In this document: positions 10,555-50,060 of the stretch, in pieces | Numbering within the stretch: the first letter of the stretch is position 1 | Layout of the letters: each line of letters starts with the position of its first letter | Assembly (NCBI RefSeq): GCF_027942865.1 | Contig: NC_134519.1 | Span: forward strand, 22,168,248-22,232,247 | DNA: 64,000 bases | DNA from: Odontesthes bonariensis | Lineage: Eukaryota > Chordata > Actinopteri > Atheriniformes > Atherinopsidae | Reading direction: 5' to 3' | Position numbers and translations under genes: made by a program | The notes under the pieces: model-generated | The model's database searches: none | Told to the model about the DNA's origin: nothing | The model's input: only the letters and a program-made list of their open reading frames with translations

Positions 10555-11040
10555 CTGCGGTAAGTTTCTTATTTCTCAACCGCCATCCAGATCCCAAACA
10601 CACTGGATGTGAGACGATCACACAGAAACCCTGTTACATAACAGCCTGAGACCAACAGCACACGTTCCTTTACATCGTGCTGTCGATTGTGAAAGAAATG
10701 GATAAAAGCTGTTTACATGTGACTCATCCATGATGTCGCCTCGCAAAATGAAGGGTATCTTGTGACAGCATCATAAGCAGCCGTAAACTAGCTGTACTGG
10801 GGTAGAACAATGAGAGTGAATGTTTGAGCGGAACAAAAGGGTGCAGGAGAGTGTTTTGGCTGATCTATGTCTGCTTTTACCTCTGGGACTTTCACCTCTG
10901 TTGCATCCCTTTTACCTTCGGGACTTGTTGGATACCTGTGATGGTAATGAGGAGAACGTGACTCAGGTAAAAGCAGATGGAGATCTGCTGCGGGAACGTG
11001 ATTTGGACATCTCATTGTGTTTTTGTTGAGTGATTGAAAG

Positions 11041-17166: not shown

Positions 17167-18891
17167 ATGTGGATGTTATATTCATCATTTGCCATTTTCT
17201 CTGTCCTACAGGTATTTACATAGATTAGTCAATTTGTTTATTGGGTTTTTAGTTTGTAATTGTCTCTAATTAATTCCCTTTCTTTTTGTTTTTTTAGATA
17301 CAACATGTAATTGTGGCTTCAGGTAAGTGATCTGTTTTGTTTGCTCTTTGCGTCTATCTGCAAAGTTTTCTTTTTTTTAAAAAAAAAAGCATCAACAATG
17401 CATAACATCTTACTGTGTTTGTGGAGTAAACAGATACATTTGAGAAACAGTTGATTCATGCACCAGTTCAAATGAAGCATTTGTGGCTCTCGAGCCAGTA
17501 TAATGAATCTGTATGCCGAGCATTTCGGAAACGCGTGCTTGGGGAGCATTTAATTGAATGAAGACAAAAGTTCATATTGTAGAATATTGTAGCTTGTACA
17601 ATATTTTATTTGGAGCCAAACAAAACTGATGACATGCGCAGTCCTCTCATTGTTCTCGCTGGTCAGTATAAGTTTACACGGATCTATTGATACTTCAGAA
17701 CATTAGAGTATTGCATTTGATGGTCTGAGCATTACGTTTATGATCTGCTCATAATACTTTGCTCCCTACAGAAACCCTTGCGTTGTGTTTGGAGTACCTG
17801 TTGCTCTTTTCGTTCCCTGTCCAAAAACATATCAAATATCTCCTTTCTCTTATTTTAGGATGTGATACACTGTCAGTGACTTCTCCCTCTGAATCTACAA
17901 TGAAAGTGGTCTGGAGCAGCCACCCTGATGCTTCAGTTTATGTTCTGGACTTGAGAGTTGTGAACTCAACGAATATCGCCCCACTGATGCTGATGCAATC
18001 AGCACCCAGCACTCAGAGGCTAATACAGGGCTTAAGACCCGGACATGTTTATCAAGTCACATTGAAGGCCTTTGAGCTTTTGTATGCTCCGTTGTGCAGG
18101 GTTACTGAAATAGCCATGACAGGTAAGAAGACAGATTTTAAAAACCTAACCCGTCACATTACCCAGTGGAATCCATTGGTTGAATAATTCTGATTTCTTC
18201 CTTTCAACATTTCCATAGTTCCTGCTCGATCTGAAATAACGTTTTCCAAAGCTATCTCAAGTACATCTGTAAAGTTTGAGTGGTCCAGCGTGATGGGGGC
18301 GGACAGATACCACTTGTTTGTGGAGGAGATTTTCAGTGTTGCTGCAAAGATTTACAACCGGACCTTCACATCCCTGAGTGGACAAGTGGATGACCTGACT
18401 CCCTCTACAGTTTATGTCTGTTACGTTTACTCCTCCAATAGTGCAGGAAGCGGCGCCAAAAGTAACATAAGGACAGTCGTGACTTGTAAGTGCACATGCA
18501 GTAAAATGCTTTTTTGCTAAAAAAATTTTTACAAGTTTTTTCTTTTTTTTAGAAACCTCCTGGCATATATGCATGCAAGCACAGTGGTTTTTAGATGGTT
18601 AACACTAATATTCTCTGCCCAAAGTGGTGCAGCCACCAACTGGTGTGACTCTTGAAGTAACTGACAAGAGCACAGCCCGAGTGACATGGAACCCCGTCAA
18701 CAAAATCCTGCTTTACCAAGTGACTGTGAGTGACGACAACCCTGAAAATACCCCAGTCATCAGGAACACCACAGCCACATTTATGGATATTGGTAATCTG
18801 GAGCCCTGCTCCACATACACGGTGGGAGTATCATCAGTCAATGTCTTCTTGGTGCCCGGAGAGGCCTCTAACATTACACACACCACCTCTC
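17167..18891 (+). other. Giant gene exons 1-5: signal peptide and Cys-poor FN3 domains
   Basis: Exons: 17167-17211, 17298-17322, 17859-18122, 18219-18485, 18625-18891. Exon 1 encodes MWMLYSSFAIFSVLQ, a short signal peptide ending in phase 0. Exon 2 (IQHVIVAS) moves to phase 1, exactly as the mini-exon of fndc7 does. The ATG follows a CACTTACAG acceptor-like site, so an upstream noncoding exon is likely. Domains 1-3 lack the paired cysteines of the later array, as in fndc7 domains 1-3. Exon 5 has a single cysteine (LEPCSTY). Start choice is inferred from signal peptide and phase. Confidence 0.7.
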
Positions 18892-21800
18892 GTGAGTATC
18901 TGAGTATAATATCGCTTTGTCTGGTCAATTTTTTGATTGGGGCCCCTCAAAACTCACAAATCCAAAATCTTTCACTGCATTAAAAGAGTATTCAAAGAAA
19001 GATTTGATAAAACACACAAATTCAGTGAGTATTGTACTTGTGTGTGAAATTTGAGGCAGTTCAGATTCAATTTTTCACATCATTCTCTACTTCTGCTCTA
19101 ACTTTTTAGTTCATTACACTCATTATACTCATCTGACGCAAGTTACTTTTTATATAAAACATACAAAAAAACTGACATCATAGAATATTTTGTCAAAAAT
19201 TGAACCATCCAACAGTTTGCAGTCCAGCTGGAACAGTATTTTTTGATAAACATCCATAGCAACCATAATGTTATTTCCTGGTATTTCTAAAAACAGACTA
19301 AACAAAATCACAAACAATTTATGGAGGAAATAACTGGTAGATTAAAACAAAATAAGCAGTAATTATCAGTTGCAGCTGGATACAATTTCAGACCCTGGTT
19401 GTGGCACACAGCTGTTTACTCCCAAAGCCTGATTAGGATGTTCTTTCAATGGTGACTTCCAAGTTATGAAAATGGAGTGGAGGAACAAGAAATGATTCAA
19501 AATTAAGAAGCTGAGATCCATTTTGACTTATCATTTCTGATTATTAGATTTTTTTTTACAACATTTGATTGACAATATATTAGTTGACTACTAATTTATT
19601 TATCAATTAATAGCACTGATATGTTTACTCTACTGTGATAACAGAATATTTACATATTTTTACTAACAGAAGTTAATGAGGGACTTTCCTCTGTGACTGA
19701 GTATTGAGTGAGTGTGGTATTAGTACTTTTACTTAAGTAAAAGATGTGAATGGTTTCTACAACACTGGAGAAGGTAGTGGTGAGAATTCTCATAAATTGC
19801 CACCTTAAGAGAAACCAGCGGTCAGTTACAGATGAATAAGTGTACAGCAAACCATCTACACATGCTTGGGGTCTATCTGATGCTGCCGTTGATCTCTTCA
19901 AGATAAACTCTTAATGAACTTCGACTGTAAAAGAACTGTATTATTTTACCTGTGTATGTTTTACCTAAAAGTCATTAAAAAAAAGTATTCTCATTAAACA
20001 GAAAAATAGTCACACTGGATCATACTGATAAATGAACGTTGATGATGTCATGTGATTTGTTGACAACTGGACAATTATTTTGTGTCATTGTAAAACCCTT
20101 TTTAAATTTCGCCAACTTTTTTCCTCAGCTATTAAGGCTGGAACAACAATCTCTGTGGACTACAGCTGCTCCAATGGCATGGTGACAGTAACATGGGATT
20201 TGGTGTTCGGGGCCAACCTATACAGGGCCACAGCTGTCGATGGCACCGGTGCCTCCCTTAACTGTACATCGGCCTCCACCAGCTGCCAGATCTCCATGCT
20301 AAAATGTGGTGAGAAGTACCGGGTCTACGTCACGGTTGTGTCTGACGACTGTGAGAGCACCTCCAACACCTCCACCTTGTTTGAGACAGGTAAGGGAAGC
20401 ACCTGTACATGTGAAGGTTAACGTGGATTGAACCTGCTTGCCTTTCCCATTTTCTACTGCTCGTTTTACCGCTCATATTGTACATGCAGGCACACACCTT
20501 CTCCTTTTTTTTGTCTCACAAAAACACATACACTTCTGGGCATACTCTAAGTTTACCGTAAGTGTTTCCCATGGGAAGCTGGTTACGGTCTTCTCATGGT
20601 GTCCAATACTCATTTCTCTTGTTGAGCAGCATAACACACCCCCTGATTAGCCAAAGAAACCAGCCATCCAACACCAGCTTCCTTAAAGCCCTGCACTTTA
20701 GATCTTTTGAAGACAGGGAGTTATCTTAAAGGTCAGATATATTATTAGTCTGAAAAAAGTTAAAAGGTAAAGTAAGCTTGCCAGGGGTGTTGATCTGATA
20801 CCATGCATACAAACCCTGCACAAAGGCTTGTCTGCTCTGATGAAGTCATGAATGTCACACAAATTTAAATAAAAAAGCGCAGACACTCCACTATTCCACC
20901 GTGTTTTTTTCTCCCCTCTCAAACAAATTTTTAACATATTCCATATTCCAACCATTGCATTTCCTCCACGGTAACTTTGCTTTAATGTCTATCTCTCCAT
21001 CTCATCCCCTTCAGTTCCCTGTGCTCCAGCTCACCCTCAGACCTCACATGACTGCTCCTCCAACGTGATCATCTTCAACTGGCAGCCCACCAACAACACC
21101 AACTACTACGTAGCCACGGCTGTGGACAAGACCGGCACTGTGACTGAGTGCAGGACAACAGACACCACGTGTTTCTTCACTAACACTGGCTGTGGTCAGT
21201 TCTACACGTACAGAGTGTACGCCGTGAGCTCCGAGTGTAACAGCAGAGTCAGTGAACCCGAGTTTGTCCGGACCTGTGAGTAGGAATTGACTCGTTTGGC
21301 ACAATTAAACTATAAAAAGGATTTTTCAGAAGGGTAGTTTCTGTGATGTTCTATTTATCTGACAATGAATTTATCTTATGTAATTAATTGTACTGCGTTC
21401 ATTGTCCCTAAACTGTTTTAACTAATCAAAGAGCCACGTTGAGTGACATGTTCCTTCATGGTCCATCTTCCTCCTGCAGCTCCTTGCAAACCAACAAACA
21501 TAAAGACTGCAGCAGAGTGTCAGTCTGACATGCTCATCACAACCTGGGACTCTTCTGAAGGAGCTCTTTCATACACTGTAGAAGCTAAGGGGAACAATGG
21601 AGAAACCTACAACTGCTCCTCCCCGACAAACAGCTGTGCAATTAGCGGTGTGCCATGTGGTGAACATCTCAGTGTGTGGATTGTCGCCTCTAACGACAAC
21701 TGCTCCACTGGCAATGTGCTGGGAGAAGCTGCCCAAACTGGTATGTGCCAAGAAAACTGTGACATTGCTGTCCTAGAGACCTGGTATCACACTCTTTTTT

Positions 21801-24800
21801 TTATTCTGATACACAATGTTTTCCCCCCTATCTGCAGTTCCCTGTACACCCACCAATGTCTCAGCGTCAGCAGAGTGCAGCCAAGATTCTGCAAAGATTA
21901 ACTGGGCAACCAGTCATGGGGCTATATTCTACATTGCTGTTATCGAAGCTGCAAATGGAAATCCATACAGCTGCCATACACTGGGTACAAGCTGTTTGAT
22001 TGAAGGCTTGAGATGTGGACAGAACTACACTGCCAGTGTTATTGGCTCTAATTTACTGTGCAACAGCACTGAAAGTCAGAAGGTTGCGTTTTTGACAGGT
22101 AGGTGATTGTGTTAGAGGGAAAAAAGCAGGATTAAAAACTGGTTATTCATTTAGGGGGAAAAAAATCCAGAGAGTCACTATAAACTGATTCCTTTGCTTC
22201 TGCTCCAGCACCTTGCCCTCCAACCAACATCGAGGCATTCAGAGACTGCGACGCCAATCATGCTCTGGTAGTCTGGCAGAACCATCAGACATCAGGCCTA
22301 TATACAGCGAGAATAGAGGATCAGAGCGGGGCTCAGCTCAACTGCACCAGCAACACAGTCAACAACTGTAAAATCACCTCTCTGCCTTGTGGACAGAACT
22401 ACACTGTCACTGTCACCTACAGCGACGGAAACTGTCAGTCCATCTCAACACCTACTAGCATGGACTCAGGTAACACAGCTGTTAGTTATTTTGGTTTTTT
22501 AAAACTCTTACAAAATGTTTCCTGTGCAGTTTCTCACCAAAGCACCATCAGCAACCAAGAACTGATCCTTGCAAAAAACTACAATTAGAGTTCAAAGCAA
22601 AAACAATTAACCAACTCAGCTGAGTCATTTATAAAATACATAACATACAAAATCAATCATCAAAGACATATGATGACATCTACTTTCTTGTTTCAGTGCC
22701 CTGTGGTCCTGAGGATGTGAAGGCCAGTGTGAGCTGCAGCACTGAAGAGTTATCCCTCACCTGGAACATCTCCATCCCTGCAGAGAACTACACCGCCATC
22801 ATCTCCAGAGGAATGGGTCACCCTCTATACTGTAACTCCAAAGAGACCCAGTGCACCATGGGAGGGTTGCTGTGTGGAAGCTCTTATACGGTGACTGTTT
22901 TCTCTGTCACGGGGACGTGCTTCAGCATGCCGAGTACAGAGGTCACGGTGCAAACATGTGAGAACGGCACAAACAGGGCTGCAGATACAGAGGTGGAACT
23001 TAATTAAACACATCCTCACATGTCTGCTTCATTTGTGTTTTCCTTCAGTGCCGTGTCCTCCCACCAACGTCACAGCTGTGCACACATGTGCTCCACATCT
23101 TGTTCCTGTGTCGTGGGCCGCCTCTAGCAATGCCAGACGCTACACTGCTGTAGCTGTGAGCAGCGAAGGTCACAGGTCTGAGTGTAAAACCAACGAGACG
23201 TCGTGCAGCCTTCCTGAGCTGCAGTGTGGGGAAGTTTATACCATCAGCGTTTCAGCTGCTGATGGCAACTGTACAGGTCAACCGAGCAACTCACTCTCCC
23301 TGAATACAGGTAAGACGACACTGACCAACACCCAACAAATGACTTGGTTAAGATATTTCTATTGAAAGGACTTCACAGAGTTCTTCAAAAAGGATTTTTG
23401 AAAATGACTGATGTTATATCTGATTCCCTCTCCAGAGCCATGCGCCCCCTCTAATGTGAGCAGTCAGGTGTTCTGCAGCGCCGGAGCTGCTCAGGTGTTC
23501 TGGGCCTACAGTGCCAACGCAGTGAGCTATGATGTGAAAGCCACCAGCGACAATCAGACCCTCACCTGCAGCAGCTCCACCTCCAACTGCACGCTGAATG
23601 GCCTGGTCTGCGGTCAAGCGTATGACATTTTCGTGTCCGGCACCGACGGCACCTGTGTCAGCAACCACAGCATCCCCTTCAGGCAAGACCAAGGTACTGA
23701 AAGAAAGAGGTTATTCCGTGTGCTTGAAAAAGCTGTACTTGAATTAAAGGGGAACTCCGGGGCATTTGAAGCGTGTTTCCATTGCTAGAGGTTGTCAAAT
23801 ACTGATACTAGGACACAGAGAGGTCCAGATCTGCGCTCCCTGTGTGAAGATTGCTCTGTCCGCACAGCATGTCATGCGAGGCTAATACGCGGTGGCTAAG
23901 GGGCAAGCGCTAACCCTTCCACGTAAAACAACAACTTGCACACTGCAGAAACGTCACACCACTTTATAAACCATCCGACAATAAAGTCACAAGCCTTACC
24001 ATCAAAACCATATGCATGGTTCTCACATTACTGGCATGGGGACGTTACAAAACAACTTTATAAACAGCATGTAACTCACCGGCTGGTTGTAGGCTCGCGC
24101 ATGTGAAAGCCCAAAAGAGTCGATGGATGATAATCCCATATACAAAACAATTATTTTCTCTAGAAAAACTGCGTTCAAGTATTTAAAACATTACAAGAAT
24201 ATTACTGGGCATGTATTGTTGTAATGTTTTAAATACTTGAACGCAGTTTTTCTAGAGAAGATAATTGTTTTGTATATGGGATTAATCTCCATCGACTCTT
24301 TTGGGCTTTCACATGCGCGAGCCTACAACCAGCCGGTGAGTTACATGCTGTTTATAAAGTTGTTTTGTAACGTCCCCATGCCAGTAATGTGAGAACCATG
24401 CATATGGTTTTGATGGTAAGGCTTGTGACTTTATTGTCGGATGGTTTATAAAGTGGTGTGACGTTTCTGCAGTGTGCAAGTTGTTGTTTTACGTGGAAGG
24501 GTTAGCGCTTGCCCCTTAGCCACCGCGTATTAGCCTCGCATGACATGCTGTGCGGACAGAGCAATCTTCACACAGGGAGCGCAGATCTGGACCTCTCTGT
24601 GTCCTAGTATCAGTATTTGACAACCTCTAGCAATGGAAACACGCTTCAAATGCCCCGGAGTTCCGCTTTAAGTTTGTAGCCTTGATTCTCATTACAGTCC
24701 CACCTATATGTTTTCAGATATTTAACCCTACTTTCCTGAATGATATTGTAGAATTTAGCTATTTATTCAGACGTGATAGAAGTCTTATCTGTCTCAACGC

Positions 24801-27800
24801 CTTTTCGACTCATTCCACAACGTTCTGTCCCTGTTAGTACCGTGTGCTCCAGGGAACGTCTCTACACACTTACAATGTGGCACAGATGACTTGACGGTCG
24901 GCTGGATCTCTTCTGCTCTGCCCCTCAACTACAGTGTCATTGCTGTGCCGCTGAATGGCAATATCAGTTCAGTCACCTGCCATACTGATCATGCCAGCTG
25001 TATTCTCAGTGGCCTTCAGTGTGGACAGACTTATAATGTCTCAGTTAAAGCCTCCTCTGGCAGCTGCAGTGGACCATATAGCCCCTCACAGACCGTTCAC
25101 ACAGGTAGTGAGAATGTTTATTGTACAAGTATGATGATGTCTATGAGATGTATCTTGTCAAGTGATTCTATTCTCTATGTTGTGATATTTCTTACCAGCA
25201 CCGTGCTCCCCTCAGAGCTTAACTGCAGTGAGAGACTGTGATACAAACTCTATCCTGGCCTCTTGGGATGCTTCTCCTGGTACCTCCACCTACGCAGCGA
25301 CAGTGACGGGGCCCAATGGCTTCTCTGAAACCTGCTCCACATCAAATCTTACATGCTCTTTCTCAGGCCTGCAGTGTGCCACTCAGTACAACATTTCAGT
25401 AACATTACAGGAAAGCCTCTGCATCAGCGCTCCCATTCAAACTGTTATGCAGACAGGTGGTGATTCATTTTCCATTTTCCATTCTGTTGATCTGAAATTC
25501 AAATGTTCCTGTTTTAGAACACATAACGAGACAGCTATCCTCAATCTGCAGGGCCATGTAACCCGCTAAATCTGACCAGCATCCTCCAGTGTGCCTCAGA
25601 CACGGCCACATTGTCGTGGGCTGCGGCTGCCGGGGCCGTGGCCTACACTGTGTTCGCTCAGGAGGACGGCTCTCATCATTACACTTCCTGTTGGAGTAAT
25701 ACGACTTCCTGCCAGCTGAAACAACTGCAGTGTGGAAAAATTTACAACATGACAATAATGGCTGAGGATGACACCTGTAACAGCACTGGAGCAACCCAAG
25801 GAGTCCTGATGACAGGTAGAAGACTCGAACAGAGGACAAACCGAGCAGACATCCAGAATCAGTCCACAGCAGTACTGATCCTCGCTTCTTTGTGTCTCCC
25901 TCTCAGCTCCATGTTCTCCTTCAGTTCAGAGCAGCACTCTGATCTGTGGCAACAGCTCCTCACTTCTGTCCTGGACGCCAATGGCTGATGCAACAGGTTA
26001 TGTAGTTAATGCGACAGCTGCAAATGGGCACAGCGTTTCGTGCAGCTCGATCACGGCTTCGTGTAGCCTGACAGATCTGCGGTGTGGTGAGACCTATGTG
26101 GCCACAGTCACCGCTCGAGGGAGCCAGTGTGATAGTGCACCTGGACCCAGCACCAACATCACCACAGGTGGGTGTTTGTGATTAGAGTGTGACTAACCTA
26201 CGCAACCTACAGCTTAACAAAAAAACTGTTAATATATTGTATCTTTTTTCTTGCTTTCAGCGCCCTGTGCTCCATCTGTCAGAACTAAAGAGTATACCTG
26301 CAGTACCAACACAGCACTGCTTAGTTGGTCAGACCCTGTGGGTCGCCTCACCTTCCTTGCCAAGGTAGTAGGAGAGGGATATCAAGACAGCTGCCACACT
26401 ACAAATACCACTTGTTTGTTCCAAAATCTTCCCTGTGGCTTGGATTTAAATGTAACTGTCCAAGCTCAAGGGGCAGAGTGCAACAGTAGCCTCAGTGTCA
26501 GTGAATCCCTTCAAACAGGTAAAAACAAAAACAGGATGGATGATAACACAAAACCATTTTCTGATTTAAACATGATCAATATAATGACTGGGTTTTTTTC
26601 TCAAATATTGAACTGTTCCCATAAGACTGAATTACTGACACTCACAAGATTTCATATAATACCTTGTGTATGTTTGTAACTCTATTGTCATCCATCTTTT
26701 TTTCCCCTCCCCAGTCCCGTGTGCCCCAGAGAATGTCAGCACCACCTTGCAGTGCTCCAATCACTCAGCCCATGTAATGTGGGTGGGAAGCCCCAGTGCA
26801 ATTGGATACAATGTAACGGTGACAGGCCAGGATGGACACACACACCACTGTCACACCAACTCAACCAGTTGCCAAGTCCCTGATGTCCACTGTGGTGAAA
26901 TGTACAGCGTCACAGCCACACCGTACTCCCAGACATGCGCAGGAACCCCAAGTGCAGCTCACAGCTTCAGAGCAGGTGGAGAAAGGCTTGGGGATACATT
27001 TCCTTGTTCCACCTGCAGCTCAGCTCAGAGTGGCAGTGTTAAACATCTTTCTTTCCTTCTCAGGTCTTTGTGCTCCCACTAACATCACTGTGTCTCCAGT
27101 CTGTGAGGACAGTGCCGTCTCTTGGTCTCATGTGACAGGGGCTGAAATGTACATTGCAACAGCAACTGCAGATGATGGACACACTCATAGTTGCAGCTCA
27201 AACGTTTCTAACTCATGCAATTTCACTGACCTCCACTGTGGGGAAACCTACGCTGCCACAGTTGTTACAGTGGACGGGGGCTGCTGGAGCGAGCCGAGCT
27301 CAGCGGTGCAACTGAGGGCAGGTGAGAGAAAACTGTAGTGAGCAGATTTTGGGTCTTTGGATGGATTTAATCACAAGATACTGAAAGAAAGAAGTAAATA
27401 ATAAAACACCTTTGAACTTCTTTATTTCCTGTGTTATTCTAGCTCTGTGTCCCCCAGTTAACTTGACTGGTCATGTCAGCTGTGACACTAACATGCTGAC
27501 TCTCACATGGAGTCCAGTCACAGGAGCTGCTTACCTTTTACAGTGGGAAAGGATAGGTGGCACCCACCCTGCTTCACAGTACAAAACCTCCAACACCTCA
27601 CACACTTTGTCTAGCCTGCTGTGTGGAGAAAGATATGCTTTCCGCATTGCAGCTCAGGAGGGAAACTGCAGCAGCAGCCACAGTCTGCCCATAGAATTGA
27701 GTACAGGTAAGATGTGTTTCTATAGCAACAGCCAATAGAGTTGTACCCGCTGCAGAAGAGTAAAACCAATGAAAATGTTGCTTTTCCTCTCAGCTCCTTG

Positions 27801-30800: not shown

Positions 30801-33800
30801 CAGAGTGACCTCGCTGTGGGTTATGTTGCCTATTTTGACAACCAAAGTGGCCACTCCACCTCCTGTATTGGTGCAGACACAGATACAAGCTGTGTGGTCT
30901 CAGGACTGCAGTGTGGCACAGTGTACAGTCTGTGGGTCAAGGCTCTTGGACAGCAGTACAACAGCACACTCAGCTCCGTGGTCTCTCTGACGGCAGGTAA
31001 TGAAATTCTATGAACAACCACAATAACAACATAGACACACCTGCAGTATTTGATAGCAAAGTAACTACGGTGATAAAGTCGCCTGTTATTATTTCTCAAG
31101 TTAAACTTTGACACAGGATGAGTGGGATTGCCAGTTTTTAGTGAGATAAATGTAATAGGTCTGGTCAGTTTAACACATTTCCTCTTTATGTGATAAGTGG
31201 AGGCAACAACTAAATGTATTCAGGCACAAGCTAATTTCAATATTTTTTCATGATCTTGCTTCTGTAAAACTTCTTTGAGACAATCATTATTTTGGAGCAC
31301 ATGCAGTCTTGAAATGATGTGTTTATGAGGGAAATATGTATCAGAGAATTTAAGCTCAAACATCCACTTATCCATCATCCAACAACATTATTTCTGCAAC
31401 AATATGCTTTCAATTGTATCTGGTTTTACATTCATATTTACCTGTAAATTCTCTGGAATCCCACAGGACCTTGTAAGCCCAACAACATTGAAGCCATAGT
31501 GGACTGCGTGGCCCATTCTGTAGCTATGTCCTGGCAACCAAGTGTTGGAGCCGTGTCCTACCTTACTGCGCTTAAAGCTTTGTCAGGCCACACCGCCAGC
31601 TGTACCACCAACCAAACCAACTGCCAGCTGAGCTCCCTGCAGTGTGGGGAGGAATACAATGTCACTGTGACGGCTGTTGGAGAGACGTGTAACAGCACGG
31701 CTCATATGGCAGGATACCTCACACCAGGTACAGTACGGCACGTGCACACTTTTCTTCTCATGGCATGATCACATTGGCCAAAAACATTCACGATAATGTT
31801 ATTATTATGACATCAGTAGAAAAGTTGAAACCTGTAAAAAAAAAATCCTGTCAGGCTAATTCCCAATTGTCTTTTGAGGTTTTTTTTTCTCAATTTTGGA
31901 GGAAATTGAATATGTGATAATACACAATGTGTATACACATTATCATTATTTCATTCTTTAAATATCACGATTCCAATCAATATCAGTATATTGTGACACT
32001 CCTAATGAGAATGCTATCAATCTTTTAACTCAACTTTTAGCATGTTTCATGTCAGCCGTTGCGTTGCCGGCAGACCAACCAATTTTCCGTACATTATACT
32101 TTAATTGACCTCTTTTTTCTTTAGAACCATGTGCTCCTGTGAATGTCTCTGTCCACTACAACATGAGCACTGCCGAGGTGATGTGGGATGCAACAAAAGG
32201 TGCCAGCTCATACTCGGCTGTGGCTGAAACGGATCAGGGCCTGACGGTCACCTGCAACTCCACCAACACCCACTGCTCCCTGGCCGGACTGCAGTGTAGT
32301 CAGATCTACAACATCACTGTGATGACCGGAAACCTGGCCTGCAACAACACTGTGACCTCTGCGCCCCGCCGGCTCATGACAGGTATGTCACACATAAGCC
32401 AAATGGCTCTACAGTACTGTGTCCAGGTTGGTCTCTCAATTCCGTTCATTCATGTCCAAATGTGATCCCTTCAATCAGAACCCTGCCCACCTACGAACGT
32501 TCAAGCAAATATGACATGTGAACAGCTGACTTCGACTGTGTCCTGGCAGCAGAGTGACCACGCTGTGGGTTACATCGCCTATTTTGACAACCAAGACGGC
32601 CACCACACCTCCTGTGTTAGCACAAGCGCAGACACCTTCTGTAGCGTCTCAGGACTGCAGTGTGGCACAGTGTACAGTGTGTGGGTCCAGGCGCTTGGAC
32701 AGCAGTACAACAGCTCAGACAGCTCTGTGGTCTCTCTGACATCAGGTGAATAATATAACCATGCGTGATGTTTCAAACTGCATTCTCCCTCTAGCCTCTT
32801 TTTAACTTGTGTTATTTTATTTATTGTGTTTTTAATGTGTTGTAAAGTGTCCTTGAGTGTTGAGAAAGGCGCTTTTTTAAAATAAAATTTATTATTATTA
32901 TTATTATCTCAGGTTTGGAATTTTCTTGTTAAGTCATTTTGTTCTCTTGCTGCTTCCTCAGCTCCCTGCCTGCCCAGTGAGGTAGCAGTAGAAGTAAGCT
33001 GTGAGGCTGACGGTGCTACTGTGGTGTCCTGGAATTCTACTTATGGCACAGCAAATGTTTCACTGATGGCCAGCGGCGGCGGGAGTCTTCAAACTCTGTG
33101 CACAACTCAGCACAACAGTTGTAATCTGACAGGCCTAAGCTGTGGGGAGTCCTACAATCTCAGCCTCATCGCCAGCAATGAGCAATGCAGCCTCACAGCA
33201 CCGACACACAGCAACTTTACAACACGTGAGTTTTTTGCACTTTATTCACACACGTGGCAGCTGCTGGTCCACAAGTTAACCTCATCTTTTGACACCTTTT
33301 TCAGGGCCTTGCCCTCCTCAGCGTGTGGCTGTTAGCCTGCAGTGCGGTTCCGGCACAGCTGACCTATCCTGGGAGGAAAAGTCTGAGGTTGAGCTGTACA
33401 CAGCAAGTGCAATCAAAGCGTCGGGAGGACAAGAGAAAAAGTGCAACTCCACAGGGTCTACCTGCCAGTTCCCCGGTCTGGACTGTGGAGAGATGTATAA
33501 CTTATCGGTCAAAGCACACATTCAAGGCTGCTGGAGCCAGGCCAGTAGCACTGTGTACATCCAGACAGGTACTCCACGGGCCAATACATGCATATCTTCT
33601 CATTAAATACACTTATTCCAATAATGTTGCATCCTTGTTTTGGTGTATTTATCTCTTTTTACCCAGCTGTATCGTATTCTAAAAGCCACAGCCGTCTTTC
33701 ATCATAACATTTTAAAAGCAGAAAGAATGGCCATGTTATAGTAAATGCTGCAGTTTTGTTTAAAATGTCCAGCATAATGTCAAACATTTCATTCCTCCTA

Positions 33801-36800
33801 CATTACATTCATAGAAAACAATCAGGTGTTTTAACTTAAATTCTACATACAACAAAAAGTCAAGTCTTCTTGAACAAAGTTGCCAGTTGCCACCACCATC
33901 CAACACCAGATTATCATTTCAACTCAGAGACCCACACAAGCTTAACTGCAGTGACTCCCATGTTTTTAGCTCATTTATAAGTTCAAAAGTATAGCTCCAA
34001 AGTAAACAGTTCTGTAGGGTACTGATTTAGCTTTCTGTTGCAGCAGTGTTGAGGTGAAAAAACAAAGTTTTATAGCTGGGCTATTCTAGTCCTGCAAATT
34101 GTAGCTGGCTGAACAAATCTTTCCGTTATCAAAATAGTGTGAGATAAGATATCTAACACCAATCAAAGTATATCACCTGAGCCAGATAGTTTATAGCTAC
34201 TTAAAACTGCTACCATCAGCATGCGCAACAAGCGCCAGCCGAGACTGAAAGCATAAATCAACCACAAATAATTAGACTAGTTCAAATAAATAGATTTGCT
34301 GTAATCGACCTGTGGTAAAACGTTGACGTGTGCAATGTTTCCAAATGTAACTGGGCATTATAAAAACTGCTTTGATCATTAAGGTACTTTTTTTTCTTTT
34401 TTTTTTAAACTGTTTTTAACATGTTATGAGTCATTGTTTAATATAAGGAATATTTACTCAAATTTCAAATAAGGAAAAGCTAAAAAATTTCAACAGTTGA
34501 GATGCACTTCTATCACTTCTTGCCCCAATTTCCTACAGCTGGACTGGGTCTCATCTAAAGTGTTCTGCCTCTTTTTCTCTCTCTTGCTATTTTTAGAGCC
34601 TTGCCAGCCCGTGATTGTTTCTGCTCAGGTGTCCTGTCAGAGTGAGGAGGTCCAGATCTCGTGGCACCAGGCAAGAGGTGTGGTGAACTACTTAGTTACA
34701 GCCACAGGGAGCCTTGGATATGTGGAGAAGCACAACACAAGCCAAACCCTTCTGTCAGCCACTTTACCATGTGGACAGTACTATAATGTCACAGTGCACG
34801 GACAGGGCAGCGAGTGTGACAGCATCCCCAGCAGTCCTGCCCTCTTCAAAACTGGTATGCCACTTGTATTTTAAGTCACATGAACATTCTTTTGACTTCA
34901 TGTGCTTGCTTTACCTGCAACCATCATCTCCCCACAGGACCATGTATCCCCTGGAATGTATCAACTTACTTGCAGTGTGAGTTTAACATGGGTTCTGTCA
35001 GATGGGGCCCCAGTGATGGCGCTGAGTCATATATTGCCATAGCTACCGGCCTTGATGGCCACACCCACAAGTGTCTCACCAACAGCACCTCCTGCACATG
35101 GAACGACTTGCACTGTGGAGAGGAGTACAATGTTGTGGTGAAAGCGAAGGCTGACAACTGCACCAGCCTGCCCAGCAACAGCTCCATCATACATATGGGT
35201 ATGGAATGGAGAGTTTGCCAGTTTCTAATTATTTCTGACTCTTTCGATCTGTAAGATTATTTCAAATCAAATTTCACCAAATATAGATATTTGTTGTATG
35301 ATATCCATCCTTTCTGTTTTCTTCCAGATCCTTGCATGCCCCAGGATTTGGCTGCTACTGTGAACTGTGACATGAAAGTGGTGTCTCTGAGCTGGGATGC
35401 CAGCAACAGGACGAAGCTGTTCATGGTATCAGCTCAGGCAGGAAATAGATCAGTCAGTCTCAGCACCAACATCACCACAGCTGACTTTTCTGAATTGAAC
35501 TGTGGACAAAACTACAGCCTCACAGTAACACCTCACAACCATCACTGTCCTGGCAACCACAGCGCGTCAGCTTCTGTGCAGACCTGTATGTACTGTTCAA
35601 AGATGAATCTTAGAGGCAAACTGAAGATGAATGTACCCAGATATGATAGCAGAAGAGAACTCAAATCAGTTTTAAATAAACTTAAATGTCTTTGTTTTTT
35701 TCTTTTTTTTTTGCAGGGCCATGCGCCCCTATGGGAATCTCCGCCACGCAGGATTGTCTCTCTAGCATCATCATGGTAACCTGGCAGCCTAGCAACGGCT
35801 CAGACTACTACACAGCCACCATGCAGACAGACACAGGCATCTCAGAAATGTGCATGTCTGAAACCAGTGCATGCAGCGTTCCCGCTCTGACATGTGGGCA
35901 CAACTTCTCCGTGTCGGTCACAGCTTCCAACCAGCAGTGTAACGTCACCTCCAGTCAAACCACAAGTCTGCAGTCGGGTGAGCATCAAAAAGCATTAAGT
36001 TACTGTTAGCAACATTCATGCCATCTGAAAGTACATGGGTCCTTTTCTTTACATTTTATATTTTTCAAAAGACTTCTTTCTGACAAAATATGTTAATGCA
36101 CCGAATGGAAATAAATATGAACACATAGAATTTACCAGGGACAGCCTTAACATGGCTAACTAGTGAGTTTCGCTGTCTACTCGATGTAATGATACTTTTA
36201 GGTGCAATTATGTGAAAAGCATCTTCTTTGGGATTATTGTAACTATCCACATAGCTTCTAAATTCATATGGTGTCATTCCACTGTGATAGATAAGTACAT
36301 CAATTATTGTTTCACTTTGAATCCAATATGTTGAAGTTTTTACCCACCACAGTATATACTGTAATATCCTATGTGTTCTATCTGCAGTGCCATGTGTTCC
36401 CACTAATGTCTCAGTGGTCATGGACTGCGCCAACAACTCTGCTGTTGTGTCCTGGTCTGCTAGTCGGGGTGCGGTTCAGTACTCAGTGATGGCCCTCAGT
36501 AGTCATAGCAACGACAGCTGTCAGACCTCTGATCTCAGCTGTAGCCTGACCAGCCTCACGTGTGGCAACAGCTACGCTGTTCAGGTTGTGGCAGTAGATG
36601 AGAGCTGCTCCAGCGTCCTCAGTCAGGTTCTTGTATTCAACTCAGGTAAGAAATATAACACCAGTCAACAGAATACCAGATATTTTAAGAGTGAGTAATC
36701 CAATTGTCTTGGTGTTCTCAGGCCCCTGCCCACCTCAAAACATGAGTGCCCAGATAAGCTGTTTGTCAAACGACTTGAATATTTCTTGGGATGCCATTAG

Positions 36801-39800
36801 AGATGCTGACCACTTTTTGGTGTCATTAACTGCTGAAAACGGAGGACCTATTGAAGTATGTAACACCACAACCACTGCGTGCTCCATCAGCAACATGACT
36901 TGTGGAAAAACATTCACTGTTCAAGTCACTTCTGTGAGAGGCGACTGTCGCAGCCAGCACAGTCTGCCCCAGACCATCCAGTCAGGTATGAAACCTTTAA
37001 ATTAAACATCCACTTTTGCGTTACTCGCTCCATCCACTCAGCAGCCCATCTCTGATATTTTCTTCTCAGCTCCCTGCCAGCCTCAGGGAATCAGAGGCAA
37101 CCTGGACTGTGTGACCAATTCTGCCTGGATCTCATGGGACGCTGCCCCTGGGGCGGACGGATACACCGCGTCCGCTGTGGGTGGAGACAGCTATACAGCA
37201 AACTGCACCACATCCACTAACACTACATGTGAGGTGGAAGATTTGGCCTGTGGAGTTTTTTACAACTTCACCGTCACTGCGAAAAACAGCAAGTGTGAGA
37301 GTCAGCCGAGTGCCACCATCAAGCTGCAGACAGGTATTTCAGACATACCGAGAGCCTCATTTTGGCTCACTTACAATATTTATTCATCCTACAGAGTAAT
37401 GTTAATGTGCTCTGTTTCCTTCCACAGCCCCCTGCTCGCTCTCTGGTATCACCGCCTTTGCAGAGTGTCACAATTCCTCCATCCTCGTTGTGTGGCACCT
37501 TATGGAGGGGAGCGAGGGAAACACCGTGTACACTGCCACAGCAGAGGCCAGTGACCGTACCTTCCTGTCGTGCAATGGCACCGGCACCAGCTGCTACCTG
37601 TACGGAGCACAATGTGGCCTCGGTTACACCGTCATCGTAGCAGCTTCATCAGACCAGTGCAGCAGTTTAAGAAGTCCTCCCTACAGAATAAGCATGGGTA
37701 AATTTTTTTTGTTTGTTGCATAAAACCTATGGAAAACGTCTTTGTGAAAGATTCTTGTGTGAAACAATAGTTCTCAGAAGTATGCCCTGTTTCTTAGAAC
37801 TTGGTTGAGAAGATCGATGCCACTTCCCATAAACTGGAAAAAATGCCCCTCCAAAAATAAGTAAAAAAAACAACAAATACAAGACGTTTTTGCTTGAAAT
37901 AAGCAAAAAAAAAATCGGCCAATGGAACCAGTGAAAATCGGCTTGTCAAGATTTCTTGAAATAAGATGTGATATTTAGGACTTTTGAGATAAAAGTGATC
38001 TTGAAATTAGCTTAAAAACCTCTTCAAATGTCAAAAAAAGCTTGTTTCATATGAGATGTGACTCAAAACAATTTGTTTTCAAGACTTTTTCATTTAACAA
38101 GATATTCAAGATGTATTGTCTTTAAACAAGTCCCTATATCTGGCTAAAATAGAACTTGTTAGGCAGTTGTGTTTTATATCAAGTGTAATGAGATATTTTG
38201 ACTAGAAATGAGACAAATATACTTGGTAAGACTTTGATTTTTTTTCCAGTGTATCTGTTAGATAAACATGCATCAGCTAAGAAATGGTTAGTTTATTTCA
38301 ACATAAAGACCAAGTCAATAAGAAATCAAAAAATATTCAGATTTTATTTAGTAGTAATTATATGTAATTTGATTTACAATGTCGAGCTTATTGATAAAGA
38401 AAACAAAAGCTGAACTCTCCTGTGCCAAATACATGAAATGGTCTTAGCGTTTTAACAGGTGTGATATTTACAATCATCTTCACCAGTTGAGGTTTATGTG
38501 TTTGAACATTTTTCATGCAGCTACTGTGCATTAGTGCAGCACCTTAAAGCTGTCTAACAAAGAAAGACAGAAAAAGAAAAATAGGAATTAAACTCAAATC
38601 TACAACTGCTGACACATGCCTTTTCTTCTCCAAAGAGCCCTGTCCACCCACAGACGTGATGGTGAACGCCTCCTGCGGGAACCACAGCGCTCTGGTGTCC
38701 TGGACACCTTCTCCTGTCGCTAAAACCTACCGCGCTGTGGCTACGGCTGCGGATGGACACGAACACACTTGCAACACCAGCTCCAGTAGCTGCAGCATAA
38801 CAGAGCTGCACTGTAACCAGGAGTACACAGTCTTTGTGACCGCGAGCCATGAGAACTGCTCCAGCAAAGCCAGTCGGAATGTAACACTGAACACAGGTGT
38901 TTGTTCTCAGACGTGTAGAATATCAGTGATCAACATAAGTAGAGACATATAACTTTGATTAGGAGTTACTATTTCAATTTCCTCTGTGTCCAGGTCCTTG
39001 CCAGCCAGGTGGACTCTCAGTTACTTTCCACTGTAACAATCAGTCTGCGACTCTAACGTGGACGCCCAGTGACAGCGCTGAAGACTATTACGGCTGCGCT
39101 CAGGCTGGAAACGGAGACATGCTTTACTGCCACAGCACGCACCCCTCCTGTACCATCGGCGGTCTTGTGTGTGGAACAGTATACAATTTCTCTGTTCAGG
39201 CCTCAGATGGGACGTGTAACAGCTCCTTCAGTGACCCTGTGCAGGATGGGGCAGGTATGACATGCCCTCCTTACTCAGCGAAAAAAAAAAAAAAAAAAAA
39301 AAAAAGTCTCAGTAAGGTTTACTCTCAAATGAAACAGCAAATGAAAACCTCCCCCTGTCTCCCTTAGCTCCCTGTCCCCCGGATGCTGTTGAGGTAGAGC
39401 TGATGCCGATGGAGATGGAGATCCAGGTGTTGCGCTTCAGCTGGACGCAGACCGCCTGTGGAGACACGGAGAACTTGCTGACTTTAAAGGGAAGTCTCCT
39501 GGGGGACAGCCAGGCCCTGTTCGAGCTCTCCTCCTACTGGACGAACATGACGTACTTTGAGATCCCTCTCCCCTGCAGCTCATCCTACGCTGCCACGCTG
39601 CAGAGCAAGAATGCTGCGAGTACAAGCCCCAAATCTGTGCCCCTCAATGGAACAACAGGTACGCCACACTCAGCCACTGCTTACACCCTGTTTTACATCT
39701 TGCAACCCAGCTGATGAGGTACTCTCATTTCATGGTGTTTGTTTTCAAAGCAATGCTGGAGAAGTTAGAGAATTTAAAGGTAACACATGTAAAAAGTTTT

Positions 39801-40594
39801 TATTCTCATTTCTCCCCTCCCAGCCCCTTGCCCACCCTCGGGAGTGACGTACAGTGGAAACAGCTCCTTTGCCACAGTGTCCTGGAACGCTTCTGTGTTT
39901 GCCACCACATTCACTGTGTATGACAGCAGTGTCACGCCCAGGGCTCAGCTCTGCAACACTACGATGCTGTCCTGCTCTCTGTCCAACATCGCTGTCAATG
40001 ATCTGGTGATCACAGCCAGTAACGCAGCAGGAGAAAGTCAACCAACAGATGCCATAGATGGTAGGATATCAATACTGCATTTGTGTGGAAATTATTCGAC
40101 AAATGGTACTTTTTAAAAAACTAACGCAAACATTTCCTCTTCAGTGGTAACACAAGATCGCAGGAGGAGAGATCTCAGTGACCGAATGCCTGATGATGGT
40201 AAGTTTGGACATGTAAGAACAATCAGTCCATTGTTTTTGAGCTTTTTTTCTAAATCAATCATAAATGTTTTGTTTATTCCCACCCCCACCAGGAAGCCTC
40301 TCAGCTCCACTACTGGATGTGAAACAGGCCACGCCAACGGTTATTTTCCTTGAGTGGTCTCCCATGGAGGATGCCACCTACTACAACCTGCTGATCCGGA
40401 AGCAAGGCAGCCTCAGCGACACTCAGGAACTGATGGTGTACGGAGAAAGCATGATTGTCACCGATCTGAGCCCCAACTCCACCTACTGTCTCACCGTGTT
40501 AGCTTTTTACACAGCTGCGAGTGGGCCGGAGTCAGAGCCCGTGTGTGTGCAAACGGGTCAAGGGGTTCCACAACGGATCGTAAATAATACTTAA
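17167..40594 (+). CDS. Giant FNDC7-related protein, 43 FN3 domains (46 coding exons)
   Basis: A paralogue of fndc7, of the kind named fndc7rs in zebrafish. The hand-joined coding sequence is 11,427 nt, predicting 3808 aa: signal peptide (exon 1), 25-nt mini-exon, 42 FN3 exons in tandem, a short basic exon, and a last exon with one more FN3 domain and the stop TAA at 40592. All 42 tandem exons are 237-291 nt, multiples of three, phase 1 at both ends, with matching AG acceptors before a PC.P start and GT donors after TG. I found no internal stop, no second signal peptide and no second terminal exon. One transcript is therefore the simplest reading, although several genes cannot be excluded without RNA. 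No transmembrane segment is apparent, so it is probably secreted. Partner and role are unknown. Exons are detailed in the following six entries. Confidence 0.8.
20129..23693 (+). other. Giant gene exons 6-13: Cys-rich FN3 domains
   Basis: Exons: 20129-20389, 21015-21275, 21480-21740, 21838-22098, 22209-22469, 22697-22957, 23049-23309, 23436-23693. Each is one FN3 domain of 86-87 codons. The common pattern is PC.P, a second Cys about 12 residues later, W of strand B/C, SC...TSC, L.CG..Y.V.V and a sixth Cys in the F-G region. Exon 22209-22469 contains no methionine near its start, so it is easily missed, but it is intact (PCPPTNIEAFRDC...). Exon 6 (20129) lacks the first cysteine and is the border between the two domain types. 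Confidence 0.85.
23745..24671. mobile_element. Foldback MITE with arms of about 445 bp, TTAA-flanked
   Basis: A near-perfect inverted repeat fills intron 13 of the giant gene. The ends read TTAAAGGGGAACTCCGG and CCGGAGTTCCGCTTTAA. The arms meet around 24192-24223. Both termini carry TTAA, which is the target-site duplication of piggyBac-type elements. No coding frame of its own is apparent, so it would be a non-autonomous copy. The superfamily is inferred from the TTAA only. Confidence 0.8.
24838..29097 (+). other. Giant gene exons 14-24: Cys-rich FN3 domains
   Basis: Exons: 24838-25104, 25199-25456, 25552-25815, 25907-26167, 26261-26518, 26715-26975, 27064-27321, 27443-27706, 27794-28051, 28476-28736, 28837-29097. 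Introns here are mostly 90-200 bases, the densest part of the array. All have six cysteines except 27443-27706, where Cys3 and Cys4 are both replaced (YKTSNTSHTL). Exon 27064-27321 and exon 27443-27706 open with LC instead of PC. N-X-S/T sequons are abundant in all of them. Confidence 0.85.
29318..29640. repeat. Dispersed fish repeat (retroelement 3' tail type)
   Basis: In the intron before exon 25 lies a copy of a very common fish repeat with the phrases GGGTACACCCTGTTCAG, CCAGTCCATCACAGGGCC, CTAACATGCATGTTTTTGG and GGAGAACATACAAACTCC. A more decayed copy of the same family lies at 51493-51735. The exact element family is not certain from the sequence alone. Confidence 0.7.
30359..32745 (+). 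repeat. Tandem block duplication of two FN3 exons
   Basis: Segment 30359-30996 (exons 26-27) is duplicated at 32125-32745 (exons 29-30). Intron sequence upstream also matches loosely: a GAGAATGATATCAATCTT phrase near 29870 and a GAGAATGCTATCAATCTTT phrase near 32005. In the first copy one FN3 exon (30013-30279) lies between that intron phrase and the block; in the second it does not. Confidence 0.7.
30668..30698. repeat. (TA)n(TG)n microsatellite
   Basis: About eight TA units followed by about seven TG units in the intron before exon 27 of the giant gene. Confidence 0.9.
32810..32910 (+). repeat. L2-like 3' tail with (ATT)n
   Basis: The phrase TGTAAAGTGTCCTTGAGTG, then GAAAGGCGC and AATAAAATTTATTATTATT, is the usual 3' end of fish L2 elements or SINEs that share their tail. 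No coding part is present. Confidence 0.65.
32962..39254 (+). other. Giant gene exons 31-42: Cys-rich FN3 domains
   Basis: Exons: 32962-33225, 33305-33568, 34597-34854, 34938-35198, 35328-35585, 35717-35977, 36388-36645, 36722-36985, 37070-37333, 37428-37697, 38636-38896, 38994-39254. All are intact phase 1-1 FN3 cassettes. Exons 33 (34597) and 35 (35328) have lost both Cys3 and Cys4 while keeping Cys1, 2, 5 and 6. Exon 41 uses a CCAAAG acceptor, less usual but in the correct frame. The longer introns (33569-34596 and 37698-38635) hold no gene; the second contains a MITE-like repeat. Confidence 0.85.
37832..38254. mobile_element. AT-rich MITE-like repeat in giant gene intron 40
   Basis: The stretch begins ACTGGAAAAAA and ends TTTTTTCCAGTGT, a short terminal inverted repeat. 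The interior has repeated CAAGAT, TCTTG and ATAAG words typical of an abundant AT-rich fish MITE. No coding potential. Superfamily unknown. Confidence 0.55.
39281..39305. repeat. Poly(A) run of about 25
   Basis: An uninterrupted A tract lies in the short intron between exons 42 and 43 of the giant gene, about 60 bases before the acceptor. It may reflect a lost retroelement tail. Confidence 0.85.
39368..40594 (+). other. Giant gene exons 43-46: divergent C-terminal end
   Basis: Exons: 39368-39658 (97 codons, the longest domain, lacking Cys2, 3, 4 and 6 but with an extra Cys in QTACGD), 39824-40060 (79 codons, lacking Cys2, 5 and 6), 40145-40198 (54 nt, encoding VVTQDRRRRDLSDRMPDD) and 40293-40594 (FN3 with LEWSPMEDATYYN and the stop). 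RRRR before D fits a furin-type site, which would separate the last FN3 domain from the array. fndc7 ends at the equivalent basic exon and has no such last domain. Confidence 0.75.
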
Positions 40595-41092: not shown

Positions 41093-41098
41093 AATAAA
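41093..41098 (+). terminator. Polyadenylation signal, giant FNDC7-related gene
   Basis: AATAAA lies 499 bases after the stop, followed by the T/G-rich stretch CTGTTTGGATTCTGC that suits a downstream element. A second AATAAA sits at about 41234. Confidence 0.6.
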
Positions 41099-41324: not shown

Positions 41325-41971
41325 AGAAAACAAAATGCAACAGAGCAATAACTCAAACACAACACAAGCAGGAATCAAGTGTGTGGTAAAAATTACCCTT
41401 TGCAGGCTGCCCTTCAGAGGATTAAAACATTCTCGGACCATCTACACACCAGTCACGGGCAGAACTGTTCAGTGAGCCGCACAGCTCCTTTTCCTGAAGG
41501 CTGAACTCAAAACGTTCACAGAAGCACTGCAACATCAATCAAATCTTAAAAAATAACTGTATTGCTTTTGTGCAGGCTGAAAATAACTACTGTTATCCTT
41601 TATAAATTACATAAAGTATACGTCGACAGTGTGGCGCTGAGCCTTTGAGCTAGACTCTGCCCATTAATAGTGTGTAGACCGTCTCCAGACATTATGTACA
41701 AACATTTCTTTTTGGGGCAAAAACGAGAACCATAGAAAATTAAAATGCCATCTTTGTCACTTTACAGATTTCAAGTGAGGACTAACAACGCTCTAACAGG
41801 GAGAGGGACAGCAGAAAAAACAAACTGAAAGCAACGTTACATTGGCCAAACACAACAACTCCAGATGTCCAGCGTGCTAACACTCCTTCTCTTCGGTGAA
41901 GGTGATTGACCACGCAGTCGGATAGAGAAATGGAAGGAAAACACAGGAGTAATACTGCTGTGAGCCGACGT

Positions 41972-50028: not shown

Positions 50029-50060
<32 letters not shown>

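Follow-up and report, generated by a model that had tools for sequence, protein, structure and literature searches.

The window, a 64,000-nucleotide stretch of the Odontesthes bonariensis genome analysed as a whole, probably carries one 45-exon gene for a secreted, glycosylated protein of fibronectin type III (FN3) domains, which disulfides would staple into a cable, likely a strand of a sensory matrix. This giant gene is composed of a signal exon, a 25-nt micro-exon, and 43 FN3 domain exons, and its reading frame opens with the ATG at 17167 and closes with a stop codon whose last base is 40594 (CDS 11,373 nt, 3,790 aa, about 399 kDa). All 44 introns are GT-AG, each of the 42 internal domain exons is in phase 1-1 with a length divisible by 3, and the spliced 45-exon model contains no internal stop or frame break. 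An earlier note had proposed a gene of about 3800 residues between the same start and end, with 43 domains, 42 one-exon-one-domain cassettes and an intact frame, and all of this was recovered. The features of the window are as follows.

17167..17211, + strand: exon 1, ATG and hydrophobic signal segment MWMLYSSFAIFSVLQ (recognized by hydropathy only), phase-0 donor CAG/GTATTT
17298..17322, + strand: exon 2, micro-exon, phase 0 to 1, finishing the signal region
17859..18891, + strand: domains 1-3, N-terminal FN3 trio (exons 17859-18122, 18219-18485, 18625-18891)
20129..39254, + strand: domains 4-40, 37 cysteine-rich FN3 domains, one exon apiece, all phase 1-1
30359..30996, + strand: domains 24-25, a two-domain block present in duplicate
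32125..32745, + strand: domains 27-28, the duplicate of that block
39368..40060, + strand: domains 41-42, divergent FN3, where the cysteine chain ends (exons 39368-39658, 39824-40060)
40293..40594, + strand: domain 43 and C-terminus, last exon, like fndc7 domain 3
41093..41098, + strand: AATAAA polyadenylation signal
2142..10560, + strand: neighbouring fndc7, 13 exons, 9 FN3 domains, 813-818 aa, a tandem relative
41782..50530, - strand: convergent PRPF38B-like neighbour (PRP38 domain ORF 50195-50530, RS-rich ORF 41782-42660), a name that we assume partly from synteny

Domain content, kinship and a second locus

Domains were detected with an in-window FN3 HMM (six seeds, iterated) run on stop-to-stop ORFs of at least 30 aa on both strands. 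It located 52 FN3 domains, every one of them on the + strand: nine at 2934-9314, as had been claimed for fndc7, and 43 at 17876-40558, the weakest being domain 41 (E 0.0003), while the next best match within the window had an E-value of 0.48. The count with the Pfam fn3 HMM (PF00041), proposed earlier as a check, gave 35/43 by Pfam alone at E ≤ 0.01 (31/37 middle and 4/6 end domains) and 43/43 via the in-window HMM; domain 1 was counted at this threshold but lies under Pfam's curated cut-off, and domains 41 and 42 had no Pfam match at all. The AF2 model of domain 10, one domain of the 43, adopts an FN3 beta-sandwich fold (pLDDT 94.1) with FN3 domains as top Foldseek matches (TM about 0.8), and the best PDB sequence matches are fibronectin fragments. 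No domain other than FN3 was seen by HMM and Pfam in the 43 domain exons, no decayed FN3 copies were found in introns below E 0.01, and no FN3 match flanked the window below E 1 (40 kb left, 20 kb right).

The signal segment is moderately hydrophobic (19-mer hydropathy maximum 1.53), and no membrane segment was seen after it (top 19-residue hydropathy 1.36). The protein is acidic (pI 4.8) and holds 127 N-glycosylation sequons vs. a mean of 54 and a maximum of 71 in 200 shuffles. The protein, a putative signal peptide followed by 43 FN3 domains, would be secreted and potentially heavily N-glycosylated.

The paralogy to fndc7 suggested earlier is supported by a common signal/micro-exon plan and by fndc7-type N-terminal domains. 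The signal exon and the 0-to-1 micro-exon follow each other in identical order and phases in both genes, the 19-nt micro-exon of fndc7 (2676-2694) being the counterpart of exon 2. Domains 1-3 are without the six-cysteine code and are kin of fndc7 domains 1-3, with top identities (G for the giant of the window, F for its fndc7) of 27% for G01-F1, 27% for G02-F2 and 26% for G03-F3; phmmer again matched G01 to F1 and G03 to F3, while G02 favoured F1 (E 3.7e-5) over F2 (3.5e-4). An FNDC7 orthologue should have about 9 FN3 domains in 13 exons and some 811 residues, which is true of the adjacent gene and not of the giant; for the buffalo gene, a table entry seems to list 13 exons and a protein of 811 aa (PMC8615036).

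Another contig of the same genome carries a second fndc7 and giant pair. The second giant has 54 FN3 domains and so exceeds the giant of the window in size; the two are collinear (30/31 mutual-best domain pairs). Codon positions 1, 2 and 3 differ between them at 0.43, 0.35 and 0.62 in 37 aligned domain pairs, a third-position excess as under protein-level selection. The own-genome search used a single-domain query (99 candidates, 77 matches) and failed to recover the fndc7 of the window itself, so a third, divergent locus could be missed; in prokaryote genome contigs, none of 137 pattern matches was related. We propose that an FNDC7-type gene was duplicated, that one-exon six-cysteine FN3 modules then multiplied internally, and that the fndc7-plus-giant block may have been duplicated as a unit later, after this multiplication.

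One gene or several

The C59-C2 cysteine chain (described below) is unbroken from domain 4 to 42 of the window giant, which argues for a single polypeptide. The earlier claim of a single giant gene is likewise favoured by the collinear 54-domain copy and the lack of a convincing internal signal exon, and we infer a single transcript. The array could also be read as several smaller tandem FNDC7-like genes bordered in the ~1-kb introns after domains 3, 11, 22, 30 and 38, which we regard as improbable. These five introns (0.9-1.2 kb) do stand out, AATAAA or ATTAAA occurs in 5/5 of them and TATAAA in 4/5. Internal signal exons were sought with two scans. The strict one (introns of at least 300 nt, strict donor score) missed the genuine fndc7 signal exon and gave one candidate at 31404-31443, 23 nt upstream of an acceptor. 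The loose one was run on the introns that separate domain exons in either giant, and it recovered 4/4 positive controls, the real signal exons of the two loci. In the window giant it returned 1 candidate in 42 introns (11.4 kb), a poor signal-like stretch between domains 3 and 4 (19914-19953), where the rest of the window gave 0.45 per kb, and none in the introns after domains 11, 22, 30 and 38; the second copy had 4 candidates in 53 introns (28.3 kb), at other junctions. Moreover, every internal domain exon has a phase-1 GT donor and none ends in a stop. The mark of a chain start (loss of C2) appears only at domain 4 and that of a chain end (loss of C59) only at domain 42, with likewise placement in the second copy. 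A break at 3/4 would be compatible with the C2-loss mark, yet both fndc7 models contain the same transition internally. Cysteine parity along a repeat protein may also reveal where a chain starts and ends from genomic sequence alone.

The tandem expansion might instead be decaying or misassembled and yield no product, which appears very improbable. Tandem arrays are error-prone in assembly, and one two-domain block is a closer duplicate (24-25 vs. 27-28). However, the middle domains are on average 31% identical, which makes assembly collapse or false copying unlikely. Also against this reading, the 43 domains are free of frame breaks, and the second copy is collinear and shows the third-position excess. 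The close duplicates, with dN/dS of 0.56 and 0.34 while their intron is identical at 45/94 positions, favour a single functional gene. No repeat offset stands out as a period or block structure of the array; the domain tree (5/49 inner branches starred, long branches) was used for identities only.

Cysteine pairing and predicted form of the protein

All six cysteines are retained in 29/37 of domains 4-40. Their co-occurrence was analysed across four proteins (two giants and two fndc7), ranking 1,875 pairing schemes; H denotes domains of the second giant, and F and E those of fndc7. In the best scheme, C45-C52 is intradomain (0/92 unmatched), while C59(n)-C2(n+1) (2/99) and C13(n)-C74(n+1) (5/84) are interdomain. 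Both C59-C2 exceptions lie in the final domain of an fndc7, where the next exon, the tail exon, contains a cysteine (it starts with VPCPGSN in the fndc7 of the window). When domain order was shuffled at the first locus, 0/5,000 orders were as low for each interdomain pair, and at the second locus, to which we turned once the rule had been noticed, 1 and 2 of 5,000. The predicted C45-C52 and C59(n)-C2(n+1) pairs are well supported.

The C13(n)-C74(n+1) pair is modestly supported. Domains 24 and 27 are without C13 and domains 25 and 28 without C74, and the interior signal corresponds to one ancestral complementary loss (p 0.03 with duplicates collapsed, p 0.04 at the second locus). The pairing is violated by H39/H40, both block ends need substitute cysteines (C61 in G03 and C30 in G41, likewise in the second copy), and the scheme leaves extra cysteines in G40, H29, H36, and fndc7 domains 5, 6, 8 and 9 unexplained.

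By share unmatched, C13(n)-C74(n+1) falls just behind intradomain C2-C59 (6/101) in the four-protein table. By counts it is modestly better than intradomain C13-C74 (7/85), and at the second locus the interdomain and intradomain C13-C74 tie (3/48 each). FN3 domains with internal disulfides are common. One giant protein with intradomain bonds (C2-C59 and C13-C74, or C2-C74 and C13-C59), an ordinary flexible FN3 string, is a rival for which the C2-C59 and C13-C74 figures speak, and we consider it unlikely while granting it a real chance. By strand order in the AF2 domain model, C2 and C74 would share one end of the domain and C13 and C59 the opposite one, so that C2-C59 and C13-C74 would have to span opposite ends, whereas the same-end pairs C2-C74 and C13-C59 are unmatched in 19/99 and 18/99. 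In addition, all 6 failures of C2-C59 are chain-first (G04, H04, F4, E4) or chain-last (G42, H53) domains.

In the stapled arrangement that we prefer, C45-C52 would close the C'-E hairpin within a domain, C59 (E-F loop, bottom of n) would bond C2 (linker, start of n+1), and C13 (A-B loop, bottom of n) would bond C74 (F-G turn, top of n+1). Junctions 4/5 to 40/41 would have two disulfides each, but one at 24/25 and 27/28. An FN3 domain is 3.2-3.7 nm long, and with two staples per junction the otherwise flexible chain of beads would become stiff and protease-resistant, a cable measuring roughly 140-160 nm. What is new here is this sorting, by co-occurrence, of six repeat cysteines into one putative intradomain and two putative interdomain pairs; no description of a giant FNDC7 relative or of FN3 interdomain disulfides was found in the literature searched, which covered few subscription journals.

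Possible role and comparison with known systems

The earlier note had called the function unknown, which family expression narrows toward a sensory matrix. Zebrafish neuromast support cells are given as expressing fndc7rs4 and fndc7a (PMC6363392), and in the P1 mouse cochlea Fndc7 is placed eighth among the genes enriched in supporting cells (PMC5137903); gene lists from fin and jaw transcriptomes include fndc7 as well (PMC4338968, PMC5450241). This expression in support cells of ear and lateral line makes a sensory matrix likely for the giant, which would act as a structural strand outside the cell, most likely within the gelatinous matrix that these cells make. Should it be located in the cupula or otic matrix, it would offer a molecular handle on gel stiffness. 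More tentatively, and with chances somewhat short of even, the two giants, of 43 and 54 FN3 domains, could represent a class of proteins secreted in fish, with two interdomain disulfides per junction, that form a stiff cable much longer than FNDC7 in the matrix over mechanosensory epithelia, the C13-C74 staple having been added when the giant arose.

Zebrafish fndc7rs, likened by name only, is probably the same kind of gene. FNDC7 shares with the giant the signal exon and micro-exon, the N-terminal FN3 trio, a single phase 1-1 exon for each domain, the C2/C45/C52/C59 code and the lack of any further domain seen, but has 9 FN3 domains and 813-818 aa vs. 43 and 3,790 aa, a different C-terminal end, and, unlike the giant, no C13/C74 pair in its domains. 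Usherin (USH2A), a protein of sensory cells, is similarly extracellular, very long and rich in FN3 domains, and is described as having 5,202 aa, 4+28 FN3 domains, laminin-type domains, a membrane segment and a PDZ motif (PMC8417766). In contrast, the giant appears to be FN3 only, with no membrane segment and no laminin domain shown by Pfam in the 43 domain exons. Fibronectin and tenascin also have tandem extracellular FN3 domains, whereas no type I/II, EGF or fibrinogen domain was seen in the scanned exons of the giant, and those families are not known to have the six-cysteine code. Long FN3 chains are usually pictured as separate beads on a string; staples at almost all junctions would, if true, make such a chain another kind of material, one that is stiff and resists unfolding.

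Domain content and gene model of the giant

An FN3 HMM, iterated from six in-window seeds, recovered 52 FN3 domains in the window, on the + strand only (next-best match E 0.48), in two groups: 9 at 2934-9314 in fndc7 (2142-10560) and 43 at 17876-40558 in the neighbouring giant gene (17167-40594), exactly the numbers claimed for both genes in an earlier note. Counting with Pfam fn3, as that note had proposed, succeeded for 35 of the 43 array domains at E ≤ 0.01. Domain 43 (40319-40558) was also above the cut-off for Interfer-bind, the Pfam interferon-receptor FN3 model, probably through general FN3 similarity. On the minus strand, a reverse-transcriptase-like fragment at 60687-61496 (Pfam RVT_1, E 6e-6, under the curated cut-off) is probably an old retroelement piece. 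Exon borders of the giant were picked by phase and GT/AG close to domain ends, and another nearby site is possible in some exons.

Exons of the 43-domain giant
Exons 1-5, + strand: 17167-17211, 17298-17322, 17859-18122, 18219-18485, 18625-18891
Exons 6-10, + strand: 20129-20389, 21015-21275, 21480-21740, 21838-22098, 22209-22469
Exons 11-15, + strand: 22697-22957, 23049-23309, 23436-23693, 24838-25104, 25199-25456
Exons 16-20, + strand: 25552-25815, 25907-26167, 26261-26518, 26715-26975, 27064-27321
Exons 21-25, + strand: 27443-27706, 27794-28051, 28476-28736, 28837-29097, 30013-30279
Exons 26-30, + strand: 30359-30613, 30730-30996, 31467-31727, 32125-32382, 32479-32745
Exons 31-35, + strand: 32962-33225, 33305-33568, 34597-34854, 34938-35198, 35328-35585
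Exons 36-40, + strand: 35717-35977, 36388-36645, 36722-36985, 37070-37333, 37428-37697
Exons 41-45, + strand: 38636-38896, 38994-39254, 39368-39658, 39824-40060, 40293-40594

The 11,373-nt CDS encodes 3,790 aa (399 kDa, pI 4.76) with 224 cysteines and 127 N-glycosylation sequons, whereas 200 shuffles averaged 54 sequons and never exceeded 71. The one-exon-one-domain cassettes previously described as lying in an intact frame do so, with lengths divisible by three in 42/42 internal domain exons and no internal stops; all 44 introns are GT-AG. Read-through meets an in-frame stop in 36 of these introns, and retention of the remaining eight (97, 94, 95, 91, 88, 79, 131, and 94 nt) would shift the frame because none is divisible by three.

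The giant begins as an FNDC7-type gene. In fndc7, exon 1 (2142-2198, phase 0) is followed by a 19-nt micro-exon (2676-2694, phase 0 to 1). The corresponding exons of the giant measure 45 and 25 nt and have identical phases, and in both genes a TLSV-bearing first domain follows. By identity, giant domains 1, 2, and 3 are nearest fndc7 domains 1, 2, and 3 (27, 27, and 26%); phmmer agreed for domains 1 and 3, favoured fndc7 domain 1 for domain 2, and gave fndc7 domain 3 as the closest non-self match of domain 43 (E 1.3e-5). These parallels in start exons and N-terminal domains support the proposed FNDC7 paralogy. The short tail of fndc7 at 9458-10560, VPCPGSNAGMVVSRGRRSVK, contains RGRR, which we take to be a furin-like motif.

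A second locus and the age of the array

A tblastn search of the 945-Mb genome (187 contigs), with domain 39 as the only query, gave 77 matches confined to two places, the window (contig C19, 22,168,248-22,232,247, + strand) and the minus strand of contig C20 (29.767-29.823 Mb), where a second 9-domain fndc7-like gene lies beside a second giant. The latter has 54 FN3 domains that total 4,664 residues, 290 cysteines, the signal exon MSKMGLLGAVGFSLALVLLTQ, a plausible 22-nt micro-exon, and GC at 1/53 internal donors, and is free of stops and frame breaks once two domains are read across one intron each. Between the window giant (domains G) and the second giant (H), 30 of 31 mutual-best domain pairs are collinear (exception G39-H25), and the 11-domain surplus is placed between G23 and G26 and between G35 and G36, two stretches with an uncertain domain alignment. 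The 37 collinear pairs (3,170 codons) were 44% identical, with differences of 0.426, 0.350, and 0.615 at codon positions 1, 2, and 3. Accordingly, the ancestral giant probably contained some 40 domains at the time the block comprising it and fndc7 was duplicated, with whole-genome duplication as the likely cause.

Mean identity among the middle domains (4-40) is 31%, therefore the array is old. Its sole close duplicate is a block of two domains, 24-25 and 27-28, for which protein identity is 62 and 77% and dN/dS 0.56 and 0.34; the intron common to both copies is identical at 45/94 aligned positions.

In the second giant, a minus-strand gene, introns split the exons of domain 5 (L035:1311-1967, C20:29803311-29803967) and domain 39 (L032:4650-4784, C20:29776650-29776784; L035 and L032 are stretches of C20); the remaining domain exons in all four gene models have no such introns. 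Each splice-junction pair carries a short direct repeat (AGTAGTCC and AAGGTG), resembling recent intron gains, which are seldom reported in vertebrates.

Predicted cysteine pairing

Middle domains carry C2, C13, C45, C52, C59, and C74 (domain-10 numbering).

Cysteines of individual window-giant domains
G04: without C2
G19, G31, G33: C45 and C52 both missing
G24, G27: without C13; the following G25, G28 without C74
G41: C2, C59, and an additional C30
G42: C2, C45, C52 present

Every pairing was scored at domain offsets 0 to 3, and the rule was recorded before the second locus came to light; the counts are of non-independent events because the copies share ancestry.

Unmatched cysteines by pairing (first locus; second locus, H and E chains; all four chains)
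C45-C52, intradomain: 0/41; 0/51; 0/92
C59(n)-C2(n+1): 1/44; 1/55; 2/99
C13(n)-C74(n+1): 2/36; 3/48; 5/84
C2-C59, intradomain: second locus 3/56; four chains 6/101
C13-C74, intradomain: second locus 3/48; four chains 7/85

The three top first-locus pairings together use every cysteine once, and their combination ranked first (7 unmatched) among 1,875 schemes (15 ways of pairing six cysteines, offsets -2 to +2), followed by the scheme with intradomain C13-C74 (9 unmatched); at 3/48 both ways, the second locus alone cannot tell an intradomain from an interdomain C13-C74. Both unmatched C59-C2 cases come from the final domain of an fndc7 gene, after which comes a tail exon that itself contains a cysteine (VPCPGSN, VTCSGSN). 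Four of the five unmatched C13-C74 cases are block ends (G03/G04, G40/G41, H03/H04, H51/H52), and G03, H03, G41, and H52 each have an extra cysteine; the fifth, H39/H40 (L032), where H39 is without C13 and H40 retains C74, is the sole uncompensated break. Extra cysteines in G40, H29, H36, and fndc7 domains 5, 6, 8, and 9 are unexplained by the scheme.

The strand order of the predicted domain-10 model (5-9, 17-23, 30-37, 42-47, 51-55, 62-71, 74-78, 82-85) puts C2 with C74 at one end of the domain and C13 with C59 at the other, so that an intradomain C2-C59 or C13-C74 would have to span the domain length. We consider an interdomain disulfide (staple) probable for C59-C2, and for C13-C74 slightly favoured.

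Gene number, tissue, and known relatives

If the array were several smaller genes, signal exons might lie between domains. A loose scan, which recovered 4/4 real signal exons as positive controls, gave one candidate in the 42 between-domain introns of the window giant (11.4 kb; intron 3/4) and four in the second giant's 53 (28.3 kb; 9/10, 16/17, 21/22, 33/34), with a background of 7 per 15.5 kb of window and 13 per 24 kb on the minus strand of the array. None of these 42 + 53 introns had a candidate at the same junction in both giants, and the scan left the likelihood of the split-gene reading unchanged. Cysteine chains also bear on gene number: as both fndc7 genes show, a chain opens with a domain without C2 and closes with one without C59 or with a tail bearing a cysteine, and within the array such marks occur at domains 4 and 42 only. 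Judged from the sequence, the array very probably encodes a single giant protein.

In zebrafish neuromasts, mantle, A/P, and polar cells express fndc7rs4 in a ring, and support cells express fndc7a (PMC6363392); fndc7a also serves as a neuromast marker (PMC11328412). In the P1 mouse cochlea, Fndc7 takes eighth place among the genes enriched in supporting cells (138-fold; PMC5137903), and one SNP near FNDC7 and STXBP3 has a suggestive, weak association with noise-induced threshold shift (PMC4488244). Fin and jaw lists also include fndc7, against exclusivity (PMC4338968, PMC5450241). We infer that the giant is secreted and has a structural role in the matrix of mechanosensory epithelia, the tissue assignment being tentative.

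Giant FN3 proteins and relatives of FNDC7 are already known, and fish 'FNDC7-like' annotations may include long predicted relatives; new here are the giant's length, the 54-domain second copy, and the predicted stapled chain.
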